Virus record (IMG/VR): IMGVR_UViG_3300028553_000134
Coordinates: 1 to 28,128 of that record
Direction: 5' to 3' (one strand)
DNA from: a virus
Length of the DNA: 28,128 nt
The stretch's first letter is position 1. Each line of letters starts with the position of its first letter. Below the pieces are notes generated by a model. It ran no database searches, had not been told where the DNA came from, and worked only from the letters and a program-made list of their open reading frames with translations. Below, piece by piece: positions 5,975 to 28,128 of the stretch. The translations under genes and the position numbers were made by a program.

Positions 5975-6154
5975 CTACTCTTCTTTATTTCTAGCAGGAC
6001 TAGTTAATATCCATAGTGCTGTGGTTGCTATAATTCCATAGCCAACTATTGTTTTTGCACTACCATCTAAAACCACCCAAGCAATAAACATTCCAAGAAG
6101 AGTCCATGCCTGATCTATTAGGTCTTTGATTATATTTTTTAGTATTCTTACCAT
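5975..6154 (-). CDS. 59-residue membrane protein, holin-like
   Basis: A small gene that a length cut-off would miss. It reads M-V-R-I-L-K-N-I-I-K-D-L-I-D, then hydrophobic stretches around residues 17-29 (W-T-L-L-G-M-F-I-A-W) and 35-50 (T-I-V-G-Y-G-I-I-A-T-T-A-L-W-I-L), and ends in a charged tail P-A-R-N-K-E-E. Its start overlaps the PA14 gene's stop by 7 bases, and its stop is 13 bases from the lipoprotein start, so it belongs to that operon. Size and topology fit a small holin or a membrane anchor. There is no specific family match. Confidence 0.7.
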   Translation of the reverse strand: MVRILKNIIKDLIDQAWTLLGMFIAWVVLDGSAKTIVGYGIIATTALWILTSPARNKEE

Positions 6155-8427
6155 TTTCTTCCTCCTCTTGAACCTGGTGAATTAGCACCTGAAGCACCAC
6201 CTCCACCAGAACTTCCTCCACCTGTGCTTCCACCTGCAGCTCCGCCTGTGGCTACGGCTGCTGCATTAATTGCTGCTCCTGCTGCTACTACTGTTGCTAT
6301 AACCATGTCTGTTGCTTCTTCTCTTTCGCCTTCAGTCATGTCTGCACCTATGCTTCCAAAGGCTGCTAGCGCTGCTCCTGGATCACTGAATACTGCTTCA
6401 AGTAGCGCACCTGGATCTTGTACAAGTTCAACATTTGCTGCTAATTCTGCTGTAATTACAAGAGCATTTCCATTTTTATCTGCTCTAACTTCAATTGGTG
6501 TAGATGGTGGAAGGTCTGCATAAGAGACTCCAGATGCTTGTACTTGTTCTGCTGAAATTGACTCTCCTGGTTTTAAATTTTCTACCAATGCTGTTACAAC
6601 TGCTGCAACTTCTTCTTTAGATAACTCTATTCCTTTTTTAGCATCTTCTGCAATCTTTGCTAATCTTTCTTCTTCAGCCTTTTTAGCATCTGCTTCTGCC
6701 TTTAATCTATCTGATTCTGCTTTAGCCTTTGCTTCCTCTGCTGCTTTTTCTTCCGCTAATCTTTTGGCTTCTTCTTCAGCCTTAATCTTTGCATCTAACT
6801 CAGCCTTTGCTTTCGCTTCTTTTTCTGCTTTGGCTTTTGCCTCTGCTTCTAATCTATCAGACTCAGCCTTTTCTTCTTCCGCCTTGGCTTTGGCTGCTGC
6901 TTCTTCTGCAGCAATTCTTTCTTGTTCTGCTTTCTTTGCAGCCTCTTCTGCTGCTATACGATCTGCTTCAGCCTTTGCTACTGCCTCCGCAGCCGCTTTT
7001 GCTTCTTCTTCTGCTTTAATTCTTGCTTCTTCTGCTGCCTTCGCCTCTGCCTCTGCCTTTGCTCGTGCTGCTTCTGCTGCAATTCTAGACTGCTCTGCTT
7101 CATATGCTTGTTGTGCAGCAACCCTTGCTGCTTCTGCTGCTAGTGCTGCTTGCCTAGCAATTTCTGCTTGTCTTGCTTCCTCAGCAATTCTTGCTCGCTC
7201 TGCCTCTTCAGCAGCGAGTGTTGATACAACAATATTTTGTGCTGCTGCAACATTATTGTTCATTACTTCTACTGCAACCTGAACTGCAACAACAGCATTT
7301 GTTAGGTTTTCCTGAGCACTTGTTAGGTTTGACTGAGCAGTTGTTAGGTTTTCTTGTGAGGTTTCTAAATCGCTATTAAGTATCTCTAGAGTTTCTTCTG
7401 CAACCTCAAGATTTGTTTGTGCTGCTTGAAGTGTTTGAATTTGTTCTTGTGATGCACTAGATGTGCTAAATTCAGATCCTGGAATTAATTCCCAGCCATT
7501 GCCTGTATTTTTATATAAAGAAACACCTGCACCGCCACCATTTTCATAAAACCACAATATAAAGTCTTTCCCTGTTCCTGCTGTAGTTTGAACACCTACA
7601 ACAGATCCTCCGCCACCTTTGTCGTACCAGTCATTAATCACAAGTTGATTATCTAAGTATAGTTGAACTCCATCATCGGCTGGAGCATGAAGATATGTTG
7701 TACCTGTATGGGTTGGTGTCCAAATCCCTTCCCACTTAACCTGAAAGTCTTCAGGGTACGTATTTGCTGGGCCTGATCCGCCCCATTGCTCATTAATTCC
7801 ATTTGTATCAGTAGTCGTAGAAACTACCTGACCTGCACCCAATGGTGGTGCATTGTTGTATCCAATATTTTGGTAAACTGTTGTAGTTAATCCAGGGCTT
7901 GTGTTTTCATTTACTACTGCTGTAGCAGATTCAACTACCTGAGTTTTATCTTCAACAACTGCTATCTGTGCCTCTACTGCTATCTCTGCAATCTCAACAT
8001 CTTCTTCAGCCTCTTCAACTAAAACGGTAGCAGAATCAACTTGTGCAATAGCCACAGTAGCACTATCTACTACTGTCTGAGCCTGGGTAATAAAGTTCTG
8101 AGCCTGTGTGATGGTGGCTGTAATAGTCTCTGTAGGGCTTGTAATGGCTGTTGCTTGGGTTTGTATGACTGCCGTGACAGTTTCGGCCTGAGTAATTACA
8201 GCAGTTGCTGACTCAATAATGGCTGTTGCGCTTTCAATTGTTACTGTTGCAGACTCTGTTAACTGTATTGTCCCAGTAGAAGTTGCTGTTGCTGTATCTA
8301 CCTGTACAGTTAAAACCTCATCTGCATGTGCAGGTTCTCCAGATGCAAAGAATAGCCAAAGCAATACAAAAAATCCCACCAAACAACTTTTTAGTAGGAA
8401 GTTTCTGATAGAGGGCCATCCTTTCAA
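6148..8427 (-). CDS. Secreted PA14-domain protein with TolA-like helical rod
   Basis: 759 residues. A signal peptide (1-35, ending P-A-H-A) is followed by a Thr/Val/Ala-rich region with repeated E-S-A-T-A-V-I units (about 45-172), then a PA14 domain (about 178-320; P-E-D-F-x-V-x-W-E-G and D-D-G-V-Q-L-Y-L-D are its typical strands). A very long Ala/Glu/Lys-rich coiled coil like TolA spans about 325-615, then a small globular part, and a Gly/Ser-rich end. PA14 domains often bind sugars. The product may be a surface adhesin or a cell-wall-spanning rod. The only start giving the signal peptide is TTG at 8427; an in-frame stop lies three codons upstream. There is no clear ribosome site, and the predicted leader is about 11 bases. 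Confidence 0.8.
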   Translation of the reverse strand: MKGWPSIRNFLLKSCLVGFFVLLWLFFASGEPAHADEVLTVQVDTATATSTGTIQLTESATVTIESATAIIESATAVITQAETVTAVIQTQATAITSPTETITATITQAQNFITQAQTVVDSATVAIAQVDSATVLVEEAEEDVEIAEIAVEAQIAVVEDKTQVVESATAVVNENTSPGLTTTVYQNIGYNNAPPLGAGQVVSTTTDTNGINEQWGGSGPANTYPEDFQVKWEGIWTPTHTGTTYLHAPADDGVQLYLDNQLVINDWYDKGGGGSVVGVQTTAGTGKDFILWFYENGGGAGVSLYKNTGNGWELIPGSEFSTSSASQEQIQTLQAAQTNLEVAEETLEILNSDLETSQENLTTAQSNLTSAQENLTNAVVAVQVAVEVMNNNVAAAQNIVVSTLAAEEAERARIAEEARQAEIARQAALAAEAARVAAQQAYEAEQSRIAAEAARAKAEAEAKAAEEARIKAEEEAKAAAEAVAKAEADRIAAEEAAKKAEQERIAAEEAAAKAKAEEEKAESDRLEAEAKAKAEKEAKAKAELDAKIKAEEEAKRLAEEKAAEEAKAKAESDRLKAEADAKKAEEERLAKIAEDAKKGIELSKEEVAAVVTALVENLKPGESISAEQVQASGVSYADLPPSTPIEVRADKNGNALVITAELAANVELVQDPGALLEAVFSDPGAALAAFGSIGADMTEGEREEATDMVIATVVAAGAAINAAAVATGGAAGGSTGGGSSGGGGASGANSPGSRGGRKW

Positions 8428-25098: not shown

Positions 25099-26028
25099 TT
25101 AGTTTTTATAAATTGGCTTTATATAATCTTTTGATTCAAAGTCAAGACCCATTTCTGTTTGCAAAGCTCTATACTCTTCAACGTGATCTTGTAATCCATA
25201 CATTCCCAAATCTTGTAGAGTAAATAGTTTTGTCAGTCTTTCTCTTGCGCTTTTATCTCTTAATCCCCAGTTTGAATTATCATTCCAATGAAACCCACCC
25301 CTTTTTCCATTATCTCTATCGTAATTTGTATATATTGCATTGATTGCTGGGGCAACTAGATTTACCCCTTGTACTGAAAGACGAACTCCAAGGCTTATTT
25401 CTTCTCCTAGAAAATATAAATATGGATCATATGGGGCCTTCATAAATGCCTTTACAGAACCAAAAGCAAAGTTAGCAGCAAAGCCATAAACTTTATCGCC
25501 AAACTCTAAGTCCTCAAGGTCTCTCCATCTTAACAAATAAACATTCTCTATTTCATCCCACTCTGGAACTACCTTATGTAAACTTTCGTTATTTAGATTT
25601 ATTTTGTCAGTGCCGTTTCCATTTTCATCCCACTCTTTTAAAAATCCATGGGGGTATTTAGTAAATATATAATCTGTTCCCCATTTTGAAGAACACTTAG
25701 TATATTCATCAATAAGCATTCTATCCCATTCTACTTTTGCTCTTGAGTGAGAGTCTGTATGCAAAAAATATTTATATTGATCAGATAGTAGGGAGTTAGC
25801 TAAATGTCTTCCAGAGCATGCTCCATCTGCTAATTTATAGTCAATCTTTTGATAAGATATTTGTTCTTTTGGTATAAATGAAAAATCAAAATTTGTTTCT
25901 GGTCCTTCATGTGAGACTAAAGAAAAAAACAGATTATCTTTATTTTTTGCATTTTCGTAAAAACTTCTAACTGTATTAATTAAATCTGGATCTCTATACC
26001 CAGCAAGACTTACAAAAATTTTATCCAT
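25099..26028 (-). CDS. GlcNAc-type glycosyltransferase (Skp1-Hyp GlcNAc transferase-like)
   Basis: 309 residues matching the PF11397 (CAZy GT60-like) layout: I-F-V-S-L-A-G-Y-R-D-P-D-L (4-16), A-C-S-G-R-H-L-A-N (70-78), the metal/sugar-nucleotide motif H-T-D-S-H-S-R (90-96) with W-D (101-102), A-A-N-F-A-F-G (184-190), and P-Y-D-P-Y-L-Y-F-L-G-E-E (199-210). In protists the founding enzyme adds GlcNAc to hydroxyproline of Skp1 in the cytoplasm. No signal peptide or membrane segment, so also cytoplasmic here. It lies 17 bases downstream of a prolyl-hydroxylase-like gene, and the Thr-Pro protein is in the same run of genes. The exact sugar and acceptor are inferred; other hydroxyl acceptors are possible. 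Confidence 0.82.
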   Translation of the reverse strand: MDKIFVSLAGYRDPDLINTVRSFYENAKNKDNLFFSLVSHEGPETNFDFSFIPKEQISYQKIDYKLADGACSGRHLANSLLSDQYKYFLHTDSHSRAKVEWDRMLIDEYTKCSSKWGTDYIFTKYPHGFLKEWDENGNGTDKINLNNESLHKVVPEWDEIENVYLLRWRDLEDLEFGDKVYGFAANFAFGSVKAFMKAPYDPYLYFLGEEISLGVRLSVQGVNLVAPAINAIYTNYDRDNGKRGGFHWNDNSNWGLRDKSARERLTKLFTLQDLGMYGLQDHVEEYRALQTEMGLDFESKDYIKPIYKN

Positions 26029-26045
26029 ACTTATATTGTATCAGA

Positions 26046-26645
26046 CTACTTCATCCATGAAACCACAGCATATCTTTCTCCTTCAATAACTGGAGACACT
26101 GAGTGGTTATAGACATAGGTTGATGGAAATAAAATCATTTGATTAGCTTTTGGTTTAAAAGTAATATTAAAACGAGGAAAATTAATTTCTCCACCTGTAT
26201 AGTTATCATTTAAATAGTATAGAGTAGAAATTCTTCTATGATATGTAGGGTGGTCATCTATATGGTTACTGAAAAACTGACCAGATCCATATTTTAAAAT
26301 GCCATAGGTGTCGTGCCACTCTGAATATACCCCGTATGTTTGCATATAATCTTTTTCTATTGGATCAAAATTTTTAAAAAACATATTATTAGTGTTTATA
26401 AGAAAGGTCTCAGACTTACTTTCTGTTGATATATCTTTAAGACCACCCATGTAAGGAATACCAATAGCGCTTGTATCTCTTGTTTTAGTATTTACCATTG
26501 GATCTGAAGATTCTTTTACTTCTGCTTCTATCCATTTTAATCCCGCAGAAATTATACCTTCTTCAATATCTTTGTATAGATTTTCGCTATCTGGAATTAC
26601 ATTATTATATACAACTATACCTGGTGCAACTTCTTCTTTTATCAT
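26046..26645 (-). CDS. 2-oxoglutarate/Fe(II) oxygenase, prolyl 4-hydroxylase-like
   Basis: 199 residues. The iron ligands are complete: H-I-D (His128, Asp130) and His181 in Y-N-H-S-V; Arg191 in E-G-E-R-Y binds 2-oxoglutarate. L-Y-Y-L-N-D ... G-G-E-I-N-F-P (142-157) and F-K-P-K-A-N-Q-M-I-L-F-P-S (163-175) are the usual double-stranded beta-helix strands of P4H-like enzymes. It splits 2-oxoglutarate to succinate and CO2 while hydroxylating a substrate, most plausibly a peptidyl proline. Such oxygenases are common in aquatic phages, but their substrates are mostly unknown. Here a GlcNAc transferase follows directly, and a Thr-Pro repeat protein precedes it by two genes. Confidence 0.88.
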   Translation of the reverse strand: MIKEEVAPGIVVYNNVIPDSENLYKDIEEGIISAGLKWIEAEVKESSDPMVNTKTRDTSAIGIPYMGGLKDISTESKSETFLINTNNMFFKNFDPIEKDYMQTYGVYSEWHDTYGILKYGSGQFFSNHIDDHPTYHRRISTLYYLNDNYTGGEINFPRFNITFKPKANQMILFPSTYVYNHSVSPVIEGERYAVVSWMK

Positions 26646-26648
26646 TTT

Positions 26649-26888
26649 TTACCATTTTCCTATTGGACAAGTTGCTTTTTCTAACTTTGTTTTAAATTTC
26701 ATTACACAACCACATTTTTTACATTGAGTTGTTAGAGATATAAACTCTGGACAAGCCTTGCATATATTAAGTCTATCAGAATGTAAGTCATCACTAACAT
26801 ATTCTGTGTTCGGATTTAATAAATCCCAAGGTCTTGTATCTCCAAGATTTTGTTTATACTTTTGCCAAGGAGTTAATTCGTCTTTCAT
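26649..26888 (-). CDS. Cysteine-rich small phage protein (DUF6171-like)
   Basis: 79 residues. A variable front (T-P-W-Q-K-Y-K-Q-N-L-G) is followed by a conserved zinc-type block: R-L-N-I-C-K-A-C-P-E-F, Q-C-K-K-C-G-C-V-M, K-T-K-L, and A-T-C-P-I-G-K-W at the end (cysteines 43, 46, 56, 59, 61, 74). This R-L-x-x-C-x-x-C-P ... C-x-x-C-G-C ... C-P-x-G-K-W pattern is typical of small proteins in aquatic phage structural regions; function unknown. It sits 3 bases ahead of the oxygenase, so they are co-expressed. Confidence 0.72.
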   Translation of the reverse strand: MKDELTPWQKYKQNLGDTRPWDLLNPNTEYVSDDLHSDRLNICKACPEFISLTTQCKKCGCVMKFKTKLEKATCPIGKW

Positions 26889-26909
26889 AAAATTCCACCC
26901 ATTCTATTA

Positions 26910-27305
26910 TTAAGATTCTACAATCTCAAATGTTATTGTTGGATTGCTTGATAATGCAGCAATAAGCATATCATTATGTGCCACTCCAATACAATATCCG
27001 TTCATTCCATAATACGTATTATTTTTTAAAAACGCAAAAGATATACATCCATCTATGCAATCTCTTATACAAGGCAGCCTGTGCTCTAGCCCTTCTGGAG
27101 CAATAAACTCTGATCCATCCCAAACACTAAGTTTGGCTGGAACATAATTCAAATGTGTAATATTTAATATTTCTGGACTATTAGATAAAGCATAATCTTT
27201 ATTGTGCTTATTATCATCTAAAACAGAGCCATCATCTTTAAGTTCTATTGAATAAAAGATGATTTTATCATCCTCTACATTTAAATAGAAATTTTTTCTT
27301 TTCAT
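26910..27305 (-). CDS. Unknown protein in the Thr-Pro/glycosylation cluster
   Basis: 131 residues, acidic, mostly beta-strand by look. The segment P-A-K-L-S-V-W-D-G-S-E-F-I-A-P-E is reminiscent of short tail or fibre-associated proteins, and L-P-C-I-R-D-C-I-D-G-C-I-S carries three close cysteines. I do not recognise a family. A strong AAGGAG site precedes the ATG. It lies between the Thr-Pro gene (33-base gap) and the cysteine-rich gene (21-base gap), so it may be part of the same particle component. Confidence 0.6.
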   Translation of the reverse strand: MKRKNFYLNVEDDKIIFYSIELKDDGSVLDDNKHNKDYALSNSPEILNITHLNYVPAKLSVWDGSEFIAPEGLEHRLPCIRDCIDGCISFAFLKNNTYYGMNGYCIGVAHNDMLIAALSSNPTITFEIVES

Positions 27306-27338
27306 TTTTTCTCCTTTTTATTATAAAATTCTACCATA

Positions 27339-28128
27339 CTAGTCATCACACCAAACCGAACCGCATGGTGCACACATATATTCACATGGTCCGTACAGGC
27401 AGCAAATGCCGCATTCTAGGCATTCAGTTGGTGTAGGGGTTGGGGTTGGTGTTGGTTCAGGAGTTGGCGTTGGAGTTGCTGTTGCTGTATAAGAACAGCA
27501 AACATATTGCTCACTACTAGTTCCATTTGAATAATAAACAGTATCTAGTCTCTCTCCACCTTCTGGGCAATAAACATATGATATACAGGTTCCAACTGTT
27601 CTACTTGTTTCTGTTACTGGTGTTGGCGTAGGTGTTGGCGTTGGAGTTGGCGTAGGTGTTGGTGTAGGTGTTGGTGTAGGTGTTGGCGTAGGTGTTGGAG
27701 TAGGTGTTGGAGTTGGAGCACAACCAGGAATTGGTGTTAGTGATACTCCTCCAGCTACATTATTTGTAAGTCCTGGATCTGCATTATCTTGACAATATGC
27801 GTTTCCAAGTGCAACTGCTTCAAGAGCGGATGAGGCAAGTACTGAACCACATTGTGTATCGTCACAAACAAAGTAATAGGTGCTTTGTACTGGAGTAGGT
27901 GTTGGCGTAGGTGTTGGCGTAGGTGTTGGCGTAGGAGTAGGGGTTGGAGTTGGTGTAGGTGTTGGCGTAGGTGTTGGCGTTGGAGTTGGCGTTGGCGTTG
28001 GAGTAGGTGTTGGCGTTGGAGTAGGGGCTGTACCAGTAATGGCTACGTATGTTGCGACTACCTCTCTCCATTTAGGGTCTGGATTGGTTCCTGTAGTTTT
28101 ATAAACAATCAGCATGTCACCCTTAATT
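27339..28128 (-). CDS. (Thr-Pro)n, cysteine-rich stalk protein, 5' end open
   Basis: The frame stays open to the window edge (I-K-G-D before the first Met at 28115), so the true start is probably outside; the Met at 28115 with AAGG upstream is the alternative (258 residues). Counted from that Met: a beta-like segment L-I-V-Y-K-T-T-G (2-9), a Pro-Thr tract 31-75, a Cys module 76-132 (C-D-D-T-Q-C), a second Pro-Thr tract 134-166, a second Cys module (V-C-C-S-Y), a short third tract with one Glu, and a C-terminal tail with eight cysteines in about 28 residues. Stiff Pro-Thr linkers joining disulfide or metal-bound heads suit a fibre or stalk. The tracts are natural targets for the nearby hydroxylase and glycosyltransferase. 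Confidence 0.72.
27429..27473 (-). repeat. Third Pro-Thr coding tract
   Basis: Codes for a short alternating Pro-Thr run interrupted once by Pro-Glu-Pro, directly before the eight-cysteine tail. Codons for Pro (CCA, CCT, CCC-type) and Thr vary along it. Confidence 0.7.
27618..27716 (-). repeat. Second Pro-Thr coding tract
   Basis: 99 bases coding for 33 alternating residues (17 Pro, 16 Thr) without interruption. On the plus strand it reads as diverged copies of GGTGTTGGCGTA. Synonymous changes are scattered through it. Confidence 0.85.
27891..28025 (-). repeat. First Pro-Thr coding tract
   Basis: 135 bases coding for 45 alternating residues (23 Pro, 22 Thr) without interruption. The DNA unit is about 12 bases with many third-position differences, so the protein pattern is kept more strictly than the DNA. 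Confidence 0.88.

Follow-up and report, generated by a model that had tools for sequence, protein, structure and literature searches.

Does a phage chemically modify the proline-rich stalk of its own tail fibre and, if it does, which residues carry the modification? The question is raised by a 28,128-nucleotide stretch of viral DNA (IMG/VR record IMGVR_UViG_3300028553_000134, positions 1 to 28,128; hereafter “the window”), which forms the end of a virus contig and in which a gene for a Thr-Pro repeat protein is followed by a 2-oxoglutarate (2OG)/Fe(II) oxygenase and a glycosyltransferase (GT). Proline hydroxylation together with sugar attachment occurs in plant cell walls and in certain protists. 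In the uncultured phage group studied here, the enzyme set encoded behind a Pro-repeat fibre gene appears, from sequence comparison, to hydroxylate prolines and to attach sugars, and a cassette for tail-fibre modification is, in our estimation, the probable explanation of the locus as a whole. Read on the minus strand, the genes follow one another in the order fibre (27339–28128), a 131-amino-acid (aa) protein (26910–27305), a 79-aa Zn ribbon (26649–26888), the oxygenase OXY1 (26046–26645) and a PF11397 GT (25099–26028), with intergenic gaps of 33, 21, 3 and 17 bases. An earlier note on this DNA had described a tight run that starts with a protein bearing three (Thr-Pro)n tracts. The tightness and the three tracts were borne out, with the corrections that two genes lie between fibre and oxygenase and that the 258-aa “protein” is only the C-terminal portion of a gene that the end of the contig truncates. 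Promoter matches in a promoter and terminator scan of the region were at chance level only.

The open reading frame (ORF) of the fibre is open at the window end and contributes its C-terminal 262 codons. The complete gene (L002:5424-8690) was found on a contig of 76.7 kb whose shared 13 kb are 99.9% identical; it encodes 1088 aa, includes an fn3 domain and matches a family of minor tail proteins (phrog_11445, E=4e-15). Upstream of it are genes for a 180-aa protein, a 1663-aa minor tail protein and a 2853-aa protein of tape-measure size. Because of this family match and its position after tape-measure-sized and minor tail genes, the most likely identity of the repeat protein is a distal tail fibre, with the cassette closing the tail module. 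Translation and a tandem-repeat scan resolved two long tracts, of 22 and 16 unbroken Thr-Pro units (27891–28022 and 27618–27713, both minus strand), and a third, imperfect one (27426–27484, minus strand) ahead of the Cys-rich C-terminus. Mixed Thr and Pro codons are used, which points to selection at the protein level rather than to simple DNA slippage; in view of the mixed codons and the conserved cassette, an origin by slippage or chance low complexity was rejected.

To place this arrangement in context, more than 200 viral loci were gathered in scans that used the GT, the oxygenase, DnaB and the N-terminal domain of the fibre as baits. Around the oxygenase-bait loci a proline-repeat fibre lies just upstream nearly everywhere, built from units such as (TP)n, (VAPTP)n, (VTPTP)n, (VTPAP)n and (VTPP)n. 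Under a loose definition of a tract, a Pro-tract protein occurs within 7 kb in all 77 distinct loci that have enough upstream sequence and carry OXY1 or OXY2, the latter being a second 2OG family that fills the oxygenase slot in some cassettes; the five OXY loci that have no such protein are contigs beginning next to the oxygenase. Enzyme pairs that regularly lack a Pro-rich neighbour, the pattern that the earlier note had expected to speak against its proposal, are thus not seen in this enzyme clade.

Since the tract definition behind the 77 loci is loose, the tests on loci picked by DnaB or by the fibre domain weigh more. DnaB is a bait independent of cassette content, and among the dereplicated loci of the window's clade that it retrieved, X-Pro repeats and a 2OG gene occurred together in three and were both missing in 29, with no locus having only one of the two; several of the 29 have FFPP-type repeats with no cassette. 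Fibres with (FFPP)n repeats and no modification cassette were noted in L071, L074, L075, L082 and L085. The fibre N-terminal domain as the only bait gave, after dereplication, 50 loci, comprising 41 X-Pro fibres and nine Thr-rich, mucin-like ones (e.g., TTTTAAP). A core 2OG gene (OXY1 or OXY2) follows 39 of the 41 X-Pro fibres vs. none of the nine Thr-rich fibres (Fisher p=2.2e-8), and a GT of family GT60, the type found in the window, follows all nine Thr-rich vs. 9 of the 41 X-Pro fibres (p=1.9e-5). On the tree of the fibre domain, at least four switches of repeat type fall on supported branches, and the oxygenase is concordant in 3.8 of 4 independent pairs, with no pair going the opposite way. 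The fibre is thereby well supported as the putative substrate of the modification set, and the comparisons likewise support the view that both enzymes are part of a set co-varying with the repeat chemistry of the neighbouring fibre. For the Pro-Thr tracts as substrate, as the earlier note had it, this co-variation is good support, while the Skp1-style route to which the note had tied them is not required.

Several points weigh against a fibre-modification cassette and temper the statistics above. All comparisons come from metagenomic contigs of related phages. The definitions of the repeat classes and of OXY2 as a family both followed a look at examples, and the 39 of 41 is partly post hoc because it was the inspection of X-Pro loci devoid of OXY1 that revealed OXY2. 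The number of independent switches is only 4–6, and the phylogeny-aware sign test (p 0.125) falls short of significance because four pairs are too few. One X-Pro fibre has no 2OG gene nearby (L176) and another only a distant PF13640 gene (L145), and if distant PF13640 genes are counted, as in an earlier and looser count, the Thr-rich class stands at 3/9 instead of 0/9 (Fisher 4.5e-5). The PF13640 superfamily is not specific to proline tracts, with arrays of up to 12 genes elsewhere in several related phages; it was dropped as a marker of proline modification for being too broad, so that only the OXY1 and OXY2 clades were counted and the argument is limited to these fibre-adjacent clades. The constant partner of the cassette, the DUF6171-like protein, is not accounted for, and the OXY1 relatives of cultured cyanophages (~30% identity) lie in surroundings that show no X-Pro tract over a distance of 8 kb. 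As a separate observation, arrays of 7–12 PF13640 genes lie away from the cassette in the records of L197, L104, L078, L187, L063 and L064.

OXY1 (199 aa; PF13640, E=2.2e-18) had been described in the earlier note as a prolyl 4-hydroxylase (P4H)-like enzyme with all iron ligands intact, and indeed H128, D130, H181 and R191, with W197 alongside, are invariant in an alignment of 25 relatives. Aligned with Bacillus P4H and PHD2, it shows the HxD...H iron ligands and the distal 2OG-binding Arg/Lys of P4H-type enzymes, and its profile matches Bacillus prolyl 4-hydroxylase (E=3e-9) and also PHD2 in the PDB. An AlphaFold model (pLDDT 92) has the double-stranded beta-helix closest to that of prolyl hydroxylases, which account for 49 of the 50 PDB matches listed (E down to 1.6e-11, TM ~0.7). 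The best among those listed is a Dictyostelium prolyl hydroxylase (6t8m, ~20% identity); others are an algal P4H alone and with (Ser-Pro)5 (3gze), Pseudomonas putida P4H with EF-Tu, PHD2 and a chlorella-virus enzyme (5c5t). OXY1 is therefore supported as prolyl-hydroxylase-like by sequence and predicted fold. The OXY2 model (pLDDT 89) matches prolyl hydroxylases and AlkB alike and the HxD...H residues are invariant, which supports a predicted 2OG enzyme. In one locus (L009), the slot that separates the Zn ribbon from a window-type GT holds OXY2 instead of OXY1, and the (TP)n fibre is retained. A scan for cellular relatives of OXY1 found none, and a DnaB scan of bacterial genomes for a clue to the host gave no match and did not identify it.

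The GT (309 aa, with its DSH motif in LHTDSHSRAKVEWD) lies 17 bases from OXY1 and belongs to PF11397, both as first noted. The PF11397 match (E=1.9e-36) scores 126.7 bits against a cut-off of 21 and covers profile positions 95–316 of 352, most of the catalytic domain; phrog_24687 (E=2e-28) and the tree agree with a GT60-type enzyme, and a sequence search for a related solved structure found none. The pair of oxygenase and GT is retained in related loci (L002–L008, L012). Within the window's own GT clade on the tree, every complete cassette has an oxygenase gene beside the GT, even where OXY2 replaces OXY1. Across X-Pro fibres more widely, those with GT60 are richer in tract Thr (median 0.73 vs 0.42, p=3e-4), and two nearly Thr-less fibres, L169 with (VAPAP)n and L046 with a similar repeat, keep OXY1 and OXY2 and have an O-FucT-like GT in place of GT60, a label that rests on a weak Pfam match.

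From this pattern we infer two reactions that are more likely to run in parallel than in a Skp1-like order, because GT60 tracks Thr and the oxygenases persist on Thr-less repeats: a 2OG enzyme would convert Pro to hydroxyproline (Hyp), and GT60 would convert Thr to glycosyl-Thr. In the window, OXY1 would act on the Thr-Pro tracts of the fibre whose gene lies just upstream, hydroxylating their prolines, and GT60 would add a sugar to the same tracts, by family precedent an N-acetylhexosamine (HexNAc). Both the action of the oxygenase on fibre prolines and that of GT60 on the fibre seem to us quite probable. Thr is favoured over Hyp as the acceptor of GT60 because GT60 occurs with Thr-rich fibres that have no core oxygenase, and with the Thr-richer X-Pro fibres and is replaced by another GT at two nearly Thr-less fibres, and we hold this assignment to be somewhat the likelier one. 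The resulting stalk between the Cys-rich modules would be stiff, hydroxylated and decorated with O-linked sugar, and its benefit might lie in stiffness, in shielding from proteases or host lectins, or in adsorption. Other GTs could extend the glycan or cap Hyp, for example those of a cluster in the same genome outside the window (contig ~56–60 kb; L225:11965-16066), where at least three glycosyltransferase-like genes stand with an FkbM-type methyltransferase.

An alternative, and the one that the earlier note had put forward, is the order of events on Skp1, in which OXY1 would make 4-hydroxyproline in the Thr-Pro tracts and GT60 would then add N-acetylglucosamine (GlcNAc) to its hydroxyl. The families fit, in that GT60 contains the Dictyostelium Skp1 Hyp-GlcNAc transferase (PMC8724618) and the best fold match of OXY1 is a Dictyostelium prolyl hydroxylase; the 2OG gene just before the GT in every complete cassette of the window's clade, be it OXY1 or OXY2, keeps Hyp a possible acceptor for this particular GT. 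Yet GT60 relatives occur with Thr-rich fibres that have no core 2OG gene in 9 of 9 cases, GT60 presence follows Thr content, the oxygenases persist on almost Thr-less X-Pro repeats, and the protist family also holds mucin-type, Thr-directed enzymes (PMC8724618), so that the strict two-step order is not upheld and is, overall, rather unlikely. A branch of the cassette explanation has hydroxylation serve stiffness or stability only, with the hydroxyl never glycosylated and GT60 acting independently on Thr. Hydroxyproline is often structural, as in collagen, and most X-Pro cassettes retain the oxygenase though 32 of the 41 have no GT60; on the other side, many of these GT60-less cassettes carry other sugar genes (an epimerase, an O-FucT-like GT) and nearly Thr-less repeats offer hardly any acceptor besides Hyp. 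We regard purely structural hydroxylation as rather unlikely, too.

It is also conceivable that the enzymes act on something else altogether, such as host surface glycans, a small metabolite, DNA or the Zn-ribbon protein, and that the place beside the fibre is a convenient insertion spot. The usual interpretation of 2OG genes in phages is that of auxiliary metabolic genes (PMC9602691), PF13640 arrays occur elsewhere in related phages, and the DUF6171-like protein is more constant than either enzyme. An insertion hot-spot alone, however, leaves unexplained why, on one and the same fibre backbone, X-Pro repeats come with 2OG genes and Thr-rich repeats with GT60, and OXY1 matches prolyl hydroxylases, not nucleic-acid or amino-acid oxygenases; we rate such other targets as improbable. 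A further reading builds on fibre modification and takes it one step beyond, to prokaryotic Hyp O-glycosylation: plant-like, Hyp-rich tail stalks resembling arabinogalactan-proteins (AGPs), served by interchangeable enzyme sets that match the repeat, namely 2OG enzymes with O-FucT-like or other GTs for Val/Ala-Pro, GT60 for Thr-rich repeats, and both for Thr-Pro. It is suggested by the Thr-less fibres, in which Hyp would be nearly the sole O-acceptor of the repeat, and we advance it tentatively, at a little under even chances.

Comparison with known systems helps to delimit these proposals. The protist Skp1 pathway (PhyA and Gnt1, GT60) has the same two enzyme families, prolyl hydroxylase and GT60, found here side by side. 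The phage substrate, however, would be a repeat-rich tail fibre of a prokaryotic virus and not Skp1, the enzymes are very divergent, a need of the phage GT60 for Hyp is not indicated, and no O2-sensing role is implied; what is claimed for the cassette is only a similar way of working, not membership in the pathway. The X-Pro repeats correspond to the glycomodules of plant AGPs (clustered X-Pro with X = Ala, Ser or Thr; PMC7769824). Such clusters are present in the fibre tracts as in AGP-type Hyp-rich glycoproteins, the residue ahead of Pro being Thr in 60–71% and Ala in 12–31%, then Val, Ser and Phe, and the Thr-Pro, Ala-Pro and Ser-Pro repeats of plant and algal proteins recur in the phages, which also have Val-Pro; the algal P4H with (Ser-Pro)5 is among the top fold matches of OXY1. 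Unlike in plants and algae, the modified protein would belong to the virion of a prokaryotic virus and no arabinogalactan machinery was identified in the phage, so AGP membership is not claimed for the fibre.

Among viruses, PBCV-1 encodes the prolyl hydroxylase vCPH, the chlorella-virus enzyme among the fold matches of OXY1, and Mimivirus glycosylates collagen, which is another likeness to the phage cassette; these are eukaryotic giant viruses that modify Gly-X-Y collagen, in Mimivirus by lysine hydroxylation, and not with GT60. For mycobacteriophage virion glycosylation we know of no proline hydroxylation or X-Pro repeat stalk. As far as it is described in a later citing paper (Freeman et al. 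2023, as cited in PMC12619734), phage-encoded GTs there modify phage structural proteins, with the C-termini of capsid and tail tube proteins as targets. A GT gene is linked to a structural protein here as well, as the cassette follows the last tail gene and GT60 tracks the repeat type. Cyanophage 2OG-Fe(II) oxygenases (phrog_61) share the superfamily and ~30% identity with OXY1 but are treated as metabolic genes and do not lie beside X-Pro fibres. More generally, phage 2OG oxygenases are usually called auxiliary metabolic genes, their function untested (PMC9602691); a recent survey found them structurally like human EGLN3 and named no substrate (PMC12774648), and bacteria and viruses have been stated to lack prolyl hydroxylases for collagen domains (PMC3368898). 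In line with the earlier note, which knew of no described phage case, our search of the open literature, with subscription journals outside it, turned up no account of a phage protein with hydroxylated prolines.

Oxygenases of the 2OG type abound in phages, and for most of them no substrate is known; the gene neighbourhood described here provides one of them with a concrete candidate substrate that can be tested. Hyp-rich glycoproteins are regarded as a plant, algal and protist speciality, which would be extended to prokaryotic viruses if they are indeed present on phage fibres. The natural swaps of repeat type and enzyme set amount to a ready-made experiment on which acceptors GT60 and prolyl hydroxylases prefer, and the cassettes might yield a simple system for expressing Hyp-rich glycoproteins in bacteria.

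No cultured phages with the same cassette were found. Its most constant member, above either enzyme and in nearly all cassettes, is the Cys-rich, DUF6171-like Zn ribbon (PF19668 E=4e-7, phrog_13558 E=9e-17). It adjoins Cys-rich repeat fibres with or without modification enzymes and is duplicated jointly with OXY1 in L045 and L047; a role in fibre assembly or recruitment is our guess. As a specific marker of proline modification it was rejected, since it also stands behind fibres that have no repeats of this kind (L064, L065, L109) and in unrelated cultured phages. The 131-aa protein has no Pfam or PHROG match; homologues are at the same place in L034, L039 and L043, and different small proteins elsewhere. 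A radical SAM-SPASM protein precedes GT60 in Thr-rich-fibre cassettes (L152, L153, L157, L161, L187, L208) and in one X-Pro GT clade (L017, L019, L020, L025, L037, L059, L195), where it may perform a further fibre-modifying step. An NAD-dependent epimerase of GDP-sugar type accompanies the O-FucT-like GT in the X-Pro cassettes of L149, L154, L155, L159, L200 and others, which suggests that some of these phages themselves synthesize the sugar nucleotide used on the fibre. GT60-bearing cassettes with no 2OG gene also accompany other repeats, (YYAPPV)n and poly-Thr (L087:1-1275; L067:2-196).

The fibre C-termini of L182, L208, L209 and L170–L175 end in an apparent Hint/intein-like domain (..CEPYDWFFVSGILIHN), recognised by eye only, which suggests self-processing of the tail fibre. 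Elsewhere in the window, positions 6148-8427 encode a secreted-looking protein of 759 aa that combines a PA14 domain with a long region rich in Ala, Lys and Glu and may be a further surface structure.

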